Shown piece by piece: positions 5,917 to 17,873 of a stretch of DNA of 49,406 nucleotides. Every line of letters starts with the position of its first letter. The first letter of the stretch is position 1. Both the position numbers and the translations under genes were made by a program. Origin of the DNA: Alphaproteobacteria bacterium (GTDB lineage: Bacteria; Pseudomonadota; Alphaproteobacteria; Micropepsales; Micropepsaceae); NCBI GenBank assembly GCA_021324545.1, contig JAJPIX010000001.1, forward strand, positions 1-49,406. The letters are read 5' to 3'. The notes below the pieces were generated by a model. The model was not told the origin of the DNA. It saw only the letters and a list, made by a program, of their open reading frames with translations, and did no database searches.

Positions 5917-5990
5917 CCTCATCCTTCGGCAGGCTCAGGATGAAGATGGTCAGCCGAGAGTCCTCACGCTGAGCCTGCCCTGGCATGAGG
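5917..5990. repeat. REP-like palindromic repeat, copy A (paired arms)
   Basis: Two inverted arms (5917-5943 and 5962-5990) both carry the core GGCAGGCTCAG, one on each strand, bounded by CCTCATCC and GCATGAGG. The core recurs at 14042 and 15434. The right arm ends three bases before the GGAG ribosome-binding site of the acyl-CoA dehydrogenase gene at 6004. It sits in the divergent region between the MFS and aidB-like genes. Confidence 0.8.
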
Positions 5991-14041: not shown

Positions 14042-14068
14042 CCTCATCCTTCGGCAGGTTCAGGAGGA
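14042..14068. repeat. REP-like repeat, copy B (single arm)
   Basis: A single arm, CCTCATCC followed by TTCGGCAGGTTCAGGA, in the 49-base gap between pdxJ and acpS. It matches copy A's left arm with two or three differences. On the minus strand its end reads GGATGAGG, four bases before the acpS ATG, in the position of a Shine-Dalgarno site. Confidence 0.75.
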
Positions 14069-14086
14069 AGACGGCATGAATTGTCT

Positions 14087-14839
14087 TCATCGGGTGCTTG
14101 CCGAGCCATGAGAAGCCCTTGCTTCATCCATCAGCTGCCGCATCTGCCGGATGCTCCGCTCCAGGCCCACGAAGATCGCCTCGCCCACCAGGAAATGGCC
14201 GATGTTCAGTTCGCGGATCTCGGGAATGGCGGCGATGGGTTTCACGGTGTCGTAGCTGAGACCATGCCCGGCATGAATTTCAAGGCCGAGCGAAGCGCCA
14301 TAGGCCGCGCCTTCGCGGACGGCTTTCAGATGCTTTTCGCGCTCGGCTCCGCGGGTGTCGCAATAGGCGCCGGTGTGGATTTCCACCACCGGCGCGCCAA
14401 GCGATTTCGCGGCGTCGAACTGTTCCTTCTTCGCTTCGATGAACAGCGAGACGCGGATGTTCGCTTTGCCTAGCCTTGCGACAATCGGCGCCAGGCGGTT
14501 GTGCTGGCCGTGCGCGTCTATGCCGCCTTCGGTCGTGCGCTCCTCGCGCCTTTCGGGAACGATGCAGGCGGCATGCGGCTTGTGCTTCAGCGCAACCGAA
14601 ACCATCTCCTCGGTCGCCGCCATTTCCAGGTTGAGGGGAATTTTCAGCTCGCGTGAAAGCCGCGCGATGTCTTCGTCGGAGATATGCCGCCGGTCTTCGC
14701 GCAGATGCGCGGTGATGCCGTCGGCACCCGCTTGTTCGGCAAGCTTCGCGGCGCGCACCGGATCGGGAAACGCTCCGCCGCGCGCGTTCCTTATCGTCGC
14801 CACATGATCGATATTCACGCCAAGACGAAGGGCGTTCAT
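14087..14839 (-). CDS. pdxJ: pyridoxine 5'-phosphate synthase
   Basis: PdxJ condenses 3-amino-2-oxopropyl phosphate with deoxyxylulose 5-phosphate in the last ring-forming step of DXP-dependent vitamin B6 synthesis. The 250-residue TIM-barrel shows [17 protein letters not shown] at the start, [19 protein letters not shown], the EIHTGAY strand and the C-terminal phosphate loop [16 protein letters not shown]. The start ATG 14839 overlaps the pyrE stop by four bases (ATGA), so the two are coupled. The open frame extends further upstream to 15037, but only within pyrE and without family similarity. Confidence 0.96.
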
Positions 14840-15420
14840 GCCAGCCCCCTGCTCCCCGGCTTCACGGCCTTGGTGTTCTTCAGGTGCGCAGGCAATTTGT
14901 CGGCTTCCCAGGCCGGGAATTTTACCGTCGCCAGCGGCACGAATTTCACGCCGAGCTTCGCCTTGCCGCCGGACCGGTCGATCAGGCAGGCCGCCGCGAC
15001 GGGCTTGCCCCCCGCTGCGCGGATCGCATCCAGACATTCGCGCGAGGAAAGGCCTGTGGTCACGATGTCTTCCACCATCAGCACCGGCTGGTTTTTTTCC
15101 AGATGAAAACCGCGCCGCAACTGGAATTTCCCTTCCTGTCTTTCGACATACATGGCCGGCAATCCCAGCTGCCGCCCCATTTCATAGCCGGGCACGATGC
15201 CGCCCACCGCCGGCGACACGATGGCAGTGAATTTCTGCTTCACCTCTTCCCGAACCTTCGCGGCGAGCGCCTTGCACAGCTTCGCCGTGATCTTCGCATC
15301 CTGGAACACAAGCGCCTTCTGCAGAAAGACGTCGGAATGCAATCCGCTCGACAGAATGAAATGACCGCGCAAGAGTGCGCCGGCTTTCTCGAATTCTTTC
15401 AGAACCTGTTCGGGAGTCAT
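14836..15420 (-). CDS. pyrE: orotate phosphoribosyltransferase
   Basis: PyrE attaches phosphoribosyl pyrophosphate to orotate to give OMP in pyrimidine synthesis. The 194-residue protein carries the PRPP-binding loop [14 protein letters not shown] and the opening [21 protein letters not shown] found in the proteobacterial/thermophilic type. The ATG 15420 is preceded by GATGAGGGC from REP-like copy C, about ten bases away. It lies downstream of rsh and is coupled to pdxJ. Confidence 0.95.
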
Positions 15421-15433
15421 GTTGTTGTCTTGC

Positions 15434-15498
15434 CCTCATCCCTTCGGCTCAGGGCGAGGAAACAGAAATCCTCATGCCGAGCCTGTCGAAGCATGAGG
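15434..15498. repeat. REP-like palindromic repeat, copy C (paired arms), overlapping the rsh 3' end
   Basis: Two inverted arms (about 15434-15460 and 15470-15498) match copies A and B; the second carries GCCGAGCCTGTCGAAGCATG. The second arm encodes the last residues of Rsh, giving the C-terminal peptide PHASTGSA and its TGA stop. The first arm lies upstream of pyrE and supplies the purine run before its ATG. Confidence 0.8.
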
Positions 15499-17772
15499 CC
15501 CCTCGTCCGCCGGCCCGCGCACGCGATCGACCGATTCGACCACGGCGTTCACCCGTAGCGCGCCAAGGATGTTCTGCAAATGCGCCACGTCGCGCACCTC
15601 CACGTCCACCTGGAAGTCGAAGAACAGCGGGTTGCGGCCCGTGGTGGAGAGGTTGAAGATGTTGCCGCCGTTGTTGGCGATCACCGTCATCACCGCGGCC
15701 AGGGCGCCGGGCTGGTTCTTCACGCGGATGTGGATGCGTGCAACCGATGGACCGATCTCGGCCGCATGCGTGTCCCATGCGACATCCAGCCACTCGGCCA
15801 TGTTCGGCGCATGCGCGAGCTCTCCGCAATCGATCGTGTGGATCACTGCGCCTTCGGGGCCCATGACGCCCACAATGCGGTCGCCTGGCAGGGGGTGGCA
15901 GCACTGGCCCAGCCGGTAGGCGATGCCTTCGGTGAGGCCCTTGATCGAAATCTGCTTGCCGCTTCGTGAGGCCTCGTAGGTTTTTTTCCGCCGCGCCGGA
16001 TCGCGCTTGAGTTCCGGATACACCGCCTCGAGCACTTCGCCGGCGCGCAACGCGCCGCGGCCGACATCGGCATAAACATCCTCGGCCTTGGCGTGGCGCA
16101 ACTTTTTTGCAACCTCCTCGATCGCCTTGTCCGTCAGCTCGGCGTTTTCGTCCGCAAACACTTTTTCCAGAATCTTGCGGCCGAATTTCACGTGCTCCCC
16201 GCGCTCAGCCAGCCGCTTGTGGCGGCGGATTTCCGACCGCGCGCGTCCGGTGACGACGAATTGCTCCCACAGCGGGGAGGGGGTCTGATCCTTGGTGCGG
16301 ATGATCTCGACCTGGTCGCCGTTCTTCAGTTGCGTATGCAGCGGCACGTGCACGCCGTTCACGCGCGCGCCCACCGTCGTGTTGCCGATGTCGGTGTGCA
16401 CCATATAGGCGAAATCGATGGGGGTTGCCCCGCGCGGCAGCGCGATCAAATCGCCCTTTGGCGTGAAGCAGAAGACCTGATCCTGGTACATGGAAAGGCG
16501 CGAATGTTCGAGGAATTCCTCCGCCGAGTCGCCCCGTTCCAGAAGCTCCACCATGTCCCGCAGCCATTCGAGCGCGCCATCGGCTGCGTCGCCTTCGACG
16601 TGCTCGCGGTAGCGCCAATGCGCGGCCACGCCCCGTTCGGCCACCTCATGCATTTCTTCGGTGCGGATCTGCACTTCCACGCGCTGCCCCTCCGGCCCGA
16701 TCACCGTGGTATGGATGGAGCGGTAGCCATTGGCTTTCGGCAGCGAGATGAAGTCCTTGAAACGGTCGGCGACCATGTGCCAGGTCGTGTGCAGGACGCC
16801 GAGGGCGCGATAGCATTCCTCTTCCGATTTCACGATCACGCGGAACCCGAAAATGTCGGACAGCTGCTCGAAATTGAGCTGCTTGTCCTTGAGCTTGCGC
16901 CAGATCGAGAAGGGGCGCTTGGCGCGGCCCTGAACCGTCGCTTCGATCCCGCGTTCGGCGAGCTTGGCCTTCAGGGACTCGGCAATGCGCTCCACGCGCC
17001 CGCCGGAATGACCTTCCAGACGCTTGAGGCGCGTGACGATGGAGTTGCGGGCATCAGGATCCAGTTCGGCAAAGGCAAGGTCTTCGAGTTCCTCGCGCAT
17101 GTTCTGCATGCCGATGCGCCCGGCCAGCGGCGCATAGATTTCCACCGTCTCCTGTGCGATGCGGCGGCGCTTTTCGGCATTTTCGATGTAGTTCAGCGTG
17201 CGCATGTTGTGCAGACGGTCGGCGAGCTTCACCAGGAGCACGCGAATGTCGCTCGACATGGCGAGCATCAGCTTGCGGAAGTTCTCCGCCTGCTTGGTGC
17301 GCTCGCTGAACAGTTCCAGCTGCGACAGCTTGGTGACGCCGTCCACGAGATTGGCGATGGTCTCGCCGAAATTTTCCTTCACGTCGTCGATGGTGACGTA
17401 AGTGTCTTCCACGGTGTCGTGCAGCAGCGCGGTCACGATTGTAGGCACATCCAGCTTGAGGTCCGTGAGGATCGCGGCCACTTCCAGCGGATGGGTGAAA
17501 TAGGGGTCGCCAGAGGCACGGAACTGCTTGCCGTGCGCCTTCATGGCATAGACATAGGCCTTGTTCAGCAGATCCTCGTCGGCCTCGGGGTCATAGGCCT
17601 TCACCCGCTCGACAAGATCGGTCTGCCGCATCAGTTTGCGGGCGGGCTTGAGCCGGTCCACCAGACCCCTTGCGGCGGACGCAAGCGGAGCAACCAGTGC
17701 AGCCGAGGGTTGAATCAGGGCTTGCACCGCGCCTTTGGTCTTGGCGGGCCGCGACGGCGTGCTCATCGTCAT
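15472..17772 (-). CDS. rsh: bifunctional (p)ppGpp synthetase/hydrolase Rsh
   Basis: This 766-residue RelA/SpoT homologue makes and degrades the alarmone (p)ppGpp. In order: a hydrolase HD domain with intact ALLHDTVEDT; a synthetase domain with YRSIHTTVIGPEGQRVEVQIRT and AAHWRYRE; a TGS domain (VFCFTPKGDLIALPRGATPIDFAY); a CHPLPGDRI zinc-finger/helical region; and a C-terminal ACT domain (HIRVKNQPGALAAVMTVIANNGGNI). Both catalytic halves look active. ATG 17772 (MTMSTP) lacks a Shine-Dalgarno site and sits six bases after TATATA, suggesting a leaderless mRNA; ATG 17766 or 17631 are alternatives. Its last residues come from a REP-like repeat. A terminator separates it from rpoZ. Confidence 0.95.
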   Translation of the reverse strand: MTMSTPSRPAKTKGAVQALIQPSAALVAPLASAARGLVDRLKPARKLMRQTDLVERVKAYDPEADEDLLNKAYVYAMKAHGKQFRASGDPYFTHPLEVAAILTDLKLDVPTIVTALLHDTVEDTYVTIDDVKENFGETIANLVDGVTKLSQLELFSERTKQAENFRKLMLAMSSDIRVLLVKLADRLHNMRTLNYIENAEKRRRIAQETVEIYAPLAGRIGMQNMREELEDLAFAELDPDARNSIVTRLKRLEGHSGGRVERIAESLKAKLAERGIEATVQGRAKRPFSIWRKLKDKQLNFEQLSDIFGFRVIVKSEEECYRALGVLHTTWHMVADRFKDFISLPKANGYRSIHTTVIGPEGQRVEVQIRTEEMHEVAERGVAAHWRYREHVEGDAADGALEWLRDMVELLERGDSAEEFLEHSRLSMYQDQVFCFTPKGDLIALPRGATPIDFAYMVHTDIGNTTVGARVNGVHVPLHTQLKNGDQVEIIRTKDQTPSPLWEQFVVTGRARSEIRRHKRLAERGEHVKFGRKILEKVFADENAELTDKAIEEVAKKLRHAKAEDVYADVGRGALRAGEVLEAVYPELKRDPARRKKTYEASRSGKQISIKGLTEGIAYRLGQCCHPLPGDRIVGVMGPEGAVIHTIDCGELAHAPNMAEWLDVAWDTHAAEIGPSVARIHIRVKNQPGALAAVMTVIANNGGNIFNLSTTGRNPLFFDFQVDVEVRDVAHLQNILGALRVNAVVESVDRVRGPADEGPHASTGSA

Positions 17773-17778
17773 ATGCAA

Positions 17779-17784
17779 TATATA
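17779..17784 (-). promoter_or_regulatory. -10 element of rsh, giving a possible leaderless start
   Basis: Minus-strand TATATA (17784 to 17779) ends six bases before ATG 17772, so +1 would be the A of the start codon. No convincing -35 box or Shine-Dalgarno sequence is visible. Confidence 0.4.
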
Positions 17785-17816
17785 GGATTCCCGGGCCGTT
17801 TTCGCGGCAGGATGTG

Positions 17817-17839
17817 AAAAAGGCGGCCGATCGGCCGCC
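17817..17839 (-). terminator. intrinsic terminator after rpoZ
   Basis: A perfect 18-base palindrome (17822-17839) folds as GGCGGCC / GGCCGCC around a GATC loop and is followed on the minus strand by T5. It lies 35 bases after the rpoZ stop and separates rpoZ from rsh. Confidence 0.8.
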
Positions 17840-17873
17840 CGTTCCAATTTTCATCTTCCGGACGAGGCGCCGC

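Follow-up and report, generated by a model that had tools for sequence, protein, structure and literature searches.

The stretch of DNA analysed here (the window, 49,406 nucleotides) carries on its minus strand rsh, which encodes a RelA/SpoT homologue (15472..17847, the longest open reading frame giving 791 aa, with the Pfam domains HD_4, RelA_SpoT, TGS, AH/RIS and ACT_4), followed by pyrE (14836..15420, minus strand, with a phosphoribosyltransferase domain in Pfam), whose ATG, as part of an ATGA, starts at 15420. From a reading of the sequence and its open reading frames, the junction of the two genes is bridged by a REPIN-like, two-armed inverted REP at 15434-15498 on the minus strand. In the sense of rsh, a first arm of 29 nt (15470..15498, minus strand), which agrees with the consensus arm at 27 of 29 positions, is followed by a spacer of 10 nt that was read from the sequence (15460..15469, minus strand) and by an inverted, slightly shortened second arm (15434..15459, minus strand), which was recognised by sequence reading and by the fold, its core being too short to count in the arm scoring. 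The last eight codons of rsh and its stop lie inside the element: the first arm, CCTCATGCTTCGACAGGCTCGGCATGAGG (15470-15498, minus strand), is read in the rsh frame as CCT CAT GCT TCG ACA GGC TCG GCA TGA, the stop occupying 15472-15474, and the protein finishes as ...VRGPADEG-PHASTGSA. At the level of the open reading frame, the element thus supplies both the tail and the stop of Rsh. An earlier note on this DNA had claimed that the element encodes the C-terminal PHASTGSA and the TGA, with which sequence and open reading frame agree, and that the same element precedes the pyrE start, which is also borne out, the GATGAGG end of the second arm lying 13 nt upstream of the pyrE ATG, a distance that would be long for a ribosome-binding site. 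It had picked out the correct coding arm but called it the second, because the plus strand had been read; in the sense of rsh it is the first.

Further copies were found in the window on the plus strand. One (5917..5990), with its first arm recognised by arm scoring and its second by an inverted-repeat search, sits between the two genes of a divergent pair that encodes an MFS transporter and an AidB-like acyl-CoA dehydrogenase. The other (14042..14070), with a single recognised arm, lies between pdxJ and acpS, after the stop of the former and 4 nt from the ATG of the latter, and its GGATGAGG end is a possible ribosome-binding site. An Rfam scan at gathering scores returned no match at the element; the sole match was elsewhere, a glycine riboswitch aptamer (RF00504, 29638-29767 of the window, minus strand, 53.4 bits).

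The element belongs to a family that is abundant in the genome from which the window comes (G000, a 2.7 Mb draft in 68 contigs, 97% complete). With a 22-nt pattern and up to 2 mismatches, 47 arms were found there and none with the reversed pattern as a control; with a looser 15-nt pattern and 1 mismatch, the counts were 89 and 4. A chance resemblance is thereby excluded. Of 60 genomes from the genus, 19 contain an exact 26-nt form of the arm. The arrangement of the arms was surveyed in a sample made up of the window, 23 further stretches of its own genome that together with it covered all 47 arms, and, for the other 18 genomes, 120 stretches surrounding 121 of their 138 listed exact arms. This sample contained 145 clusters (107 with two recognised arms, 30 with a single arm and 8 with more than two), and 98 of the 107 two-arm clusters were inverted, with one C-type and one G-type arm; the gap between the arms was 12-15 nt in 77 of the 107. 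This is the anatomy of a REPIN, as judged from the arrangement of the arms. In four stretches of the same genome (L139, L141, L146 and L148), tandem 16-nt arm cores (CTTCGACAAGCTCATG-like) were seen beside normal arms.

Like the REP and REPIN sequences, the elements are short, multicopy palindromes that occur as inverted pairs with a short spacer near the 3′ ends of genes (PMC3733652), and their position, mostly at gene ends and extragenic, was evident from 131 of 179 genes, predicted with a basic codon score for which the window was the training set, that read toward the 145 clusters and stop 0-40 nt before them; 4 more overlap a cluster partly. They differ in the features that mark the known families: the GTAG/CGTC tetranucleotide tag was absent from the ends of the elements in 102 oriented pairs, the arms ending CCTC...GAGG; no flank or target motif was found over these 102 pairs (at most 0.15 bit per position); and a search for the Y1 transposase (PF01797, RAYT) gave no gene in the G000 draft, PF01797 being present in 5 of 12 genomes of the genus and in 8 of 19 genomes overall. 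The 15-nt arm core, used as a text query, matched no paper in the literature searched. That the ends of REPs can donate stop codons has already been published, the stop there being a TAG in the tag, as opposed to a TGA within the palindrome here (PMC3733652). The rsh case is an already known kind of event, here brought about by another palindrome family with its TGA inside the arm.

The notion that the rsh case might be unique was ruled out by the same tails on other genes, both in the same genome and in relatives. Apart from the genes that stop before or partly overlap a cluster, 44 of the 179 read at least 27 nt into one, and in 19 of these the stop is precisely the TGA at the distal end of the first arm; one of the 19 (L199) has the arm in reverse orientation. 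Several of the read-through cases probably reflect false frames lying opposite genuine genes. Twelve proteins from the 19 TGA-ending genes, besides rsh, were scanned, and ten had a Pfam domain, the matches including four ABC ATPases as well as pantothenate kinase, PrmA and tRNA pseudouridine synthase. Three of these ATPases, each from a different genome, share 82-86% identity and carry their REP tails at the same place, and the copy in the genome of the window is 73-75% identical to those three over 193-194 aligned residues. In this genome, the same phase is seen at the ends of at least three further genes, which encode an ABC ATPase (L129), a MaoC-like protein (L138) and a protein of the IF-2B family (L139), and a fourth open reading frame that ends at an arm (L142) has a weak gene score. 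The ABC ATPase gene (L129, 2358-3092, minus strand) is apparently frameshifted shortly before its end and still finishes in the element arm. The event in rsh is accordingly less special than had been implied, because other genes carry the same tails. Against an expectation of one third, the in-phase share was 19/44 for all genes (p = 0.11), 13/27 (p = 0.079) and 12/23 (p = 0.048) at gene scores of 25 and 40, and 8/12 (p = 0.019) and 7/8 (p = 0.0026) at scores of 60 and 80; for selection of the phase in the genus, these values, with their weak excess at the loose thresholds, are suggestive only, because the genes are related, and thus non-independent, and the thresholds were compared post hoc.

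The state of the junction before the insertion was approached by a census of 55 distinct rows, the window included, in which pyrE was sought within 420 nt of the rsh stop. Dropped before this count were 14 duplicates, one short fragment (L036), four rows in which no stop was reached (L038 and L091-L093) and the outgroups (L026-L035 and L094-L118); L037 is without a C-terminal match. The pyrE starts were taken from a motif and the nearest start codon, so a wrongly placed start may lie behind the three overlaps of 14 nt. The gene was located in 41 of the 55 rows, and in 22 of the 41 it overlaps rsh, by exactly 4 nt in 19. Four of the 55 rows are carriers, with an arm across the rsh stop, and in all four the two genes are separated, by 51 nt in the window, 57 nt in L020, 55 nt in L059 and 10 nt in L065; gapped junctions (0 nt or more) also occur in 15 of the 37 non-carriers in which pyrE was found, some of them with other palindromes. 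Palindromes of other kinds (GGCCCGCGAATGCGGGCC-like and similar) directly follow the rsh stop in L015, L018, L044, L060 and L075, so several repeat families enter this junction.

When the element plus two bases is excised from the window, the join reads VRGPADEGKTTT, and its TGA then overlaps the pyrE ATG; with 0, 1 or 3 extra bases the frame fails to fit. The window has retained the ATGA at the pyrE start, which is in the rsh frame after this excision, and the TGA within it is likely to be the former rsh stop. The earlier note had assumed that the native stop was overwritten. Given the overlap at 22 of the 41 junctions, the retained ATGA and the empty-site join, overwriting is less likely than displacement: since the overlap is common in relatives and the ATGA is kept, the old stop was probably bypassed. 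The strength of this argument is modest, because two extra bases are needed, which is one choice in three, and because any ATG followed by an A yields ATGA.

The preferred reading, to which we give a probability of roughly 85%, is that a REPIN-like element inserted near the end of rsh and supplied its tail and stop, with the native stop displaced and the tail probably neutral. A non-autonomous palindrome of this kind would have entered the last few rsh codons, just ahead of the pyrE overlap. As the sequence shows, its first arm is read in the only frame in which the TGA of GCATGAGG is encountered, so translation ends within the element once eight of its own codons have been read. The original stop, overlapping the pyrE start, would now lie some 50 nt further downstream, no longer used. 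As likely consequences, the stop/start overlap, which may couple pyrE to rsh translation, would be lost, and the hairpin that holds the rsh stop may delay termination or shield the 3′ end. Such insertions would recur because the elements collect at gene ends and because the TGA of the arm lets one frame in three survive with a short tail.

It is plausible that the element affects the translation of rsh or its coupling to pyrE, and one could go further and suppose that the element was selected at the rsh stop as a translational attenuator, its hairpin stalling terminating ribosomes and/or uncoupling pyrE, which would explain its recurrence. PMC12306157, citing Liang, Rudd and Deutscher 2015, reports that REPs less than 16 nt from the stop lower translation in E. 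coli; the present element is like these in that a palindrome lies within 15 nt of the stop, and differs from what is described there in that the stop codon is inside the palindrome. The same junction was hit in probably three or four insertions, and on its own the element forms a strong fold (-35.3 kcal/mol, z -3.9, matched by 0 of 200 shuffles). The fold is unexceptional when the element is placed in a context of 116 nt (z -0.27, 73 of 200 shuffles as good), 51 of the 55 rows do without the element, and the position at gene ends is general to the family, as the 131 of 179 genes illustrate; selection as an attenuator is therefore regarded as unlikely.

The number of insertions was judged from the carriers themselves and from an Rsh tree of 57 rows, in which 3 outgroup rows were kept and from which the 14 duplicates, the short rows L036 and L090, and L038 and L091-L093 were left out. 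The carriers are separate tips on this tree, so that 4 changes are needed, 4 of them forced by starred branches. All four carriers share the same phase (offset 33), the other forward matches reaching at most 16/29. The C-type arm comes first in L059 and the G-type arm first in the window and in L020; the reversed order makes L059 a separate insertion, unless the element was inverted in place. The left boundary GAAGCGGATGCTTCG is common to L020 and L065, which might therefore share one event, and for this reason three or four insertions are claimed: the sequences at the four rsh stops probably represent that number, one of them in the opposite orientation. A single old insertion, already present in the common ancestor of the genus and precisely deleted from the non-carriers, would account for the shared phase and for the GAAGCGGATGCTTCG boundary of at least these two rows, and label changes on a tree read alike for gain and for loss; it is nonetheless quite improbable, as the tree requires 4 changes, the carriers are nested among clean 4-nt overlaps and the arm order of L059 is reversed.

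Some relatives have rsh ends that resemble the element in other ways. In L013, L055, L057 and L086, which are relatives of L065, an eroded arm seems to be still coding, in a shifted frame that gives tails of the form ADASASSSHEG..., with the 4-nt overlap with pyrE in use; here the repeat has apparently turned into coding sequence. The rsh tail of L056, APTGSA-TAG, resembles the arm peptide with mostly synonymous differences and may be a relic of the L059 insertion or chance. Its junction and that of L059 are both 55 nt long and identical at 37 of 85 positions, for which 4 of 20000 shuffles were as good in a fixed register, and this junction is more diverged than the third positions of rsh (118 of 388 differ).

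In an alignment of 39 Rsh C-termini, including 7 outgroup rows, the conservation reaches VDRVR(GP) and then ceases, so that homology ends at VDRVRGP, shortly ahead of the element; all 7 outgroup rows finish at the DRAR/ERAR block or one residue later, and the remaining rows have dissimilar tails that run 4 to 23 residues beyond VDRVR. The tail of the window was found in none of the 51 distinct relatives without the element, the nearest being the APTGSA of L056; the finding that the earlier note had named as refuting its claim thus did not turn up. The Pfam match to ACT_4 stops at residue 775 of 791, and in a structure predicted for the last 125 residues the mean pLDDT is 92-97 in blocks over residues 41 to 110, falls below 50 at residues 114-121 and averages 55 over the last five. 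The tail is outside the ACT domain and predicted to be disordered; following that domain in a stretch without conserved sequence, it would probably be neutral for Rsh. That it is a functional, retained extension tuning the control by the ACT domain, as several species with similar Rsh tails, the APTGSA of L056 (the sister of L059, with equal junction length, matching the generic arm at 14 of 21 nt with differences mostly synonymous) and the eroded arm retained as coding sequence in L013, L055, L057 and L086 might suggest, is highly improbable, for the tails vary in length and sequence, the outgroups have none, the predicted confidence is low, the L056 and L059 junctions are identical at only 37 of 85 positions, and similar tails occur on unrelated proteins, namely an ABC ATPase, an IF-2B family protein, pantothenate kinase, PrmA and tRNA pseudouridine synthase.

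Rickettsia palindromic elements (RPE), which PMC3733652 mentions, are described as inserts within genes, in contrast to the element here, which terminates the protein. The two are alike as selfish palindromes that are translated into protein. A broader and tentative proposal, on the doubtful side at present, is that the family acts across the genus as a "stop and tail cassette": insertions at gene ends would persist mostly when the TGA of the arm is in frame, would at rsh disrupt the overlap with pyrE time and again, and would in a single clade have let the arm drift until it became a genuine coding tail that ends at the native stop, making the repeat a source of new ends for core proteins. 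The rsh case adds another palindrome family to the selfish repeats that remodel the termini of core proteins in bacteria and disrupt stop/start overlaps, and the natural species pairs with and without the element at rsh/pyrE would make effects on translation measurable. It also calls for caution with annotated C-termini such as ASTGSA, ASTSSA and HPSTSSG, which can be derived from repeats.
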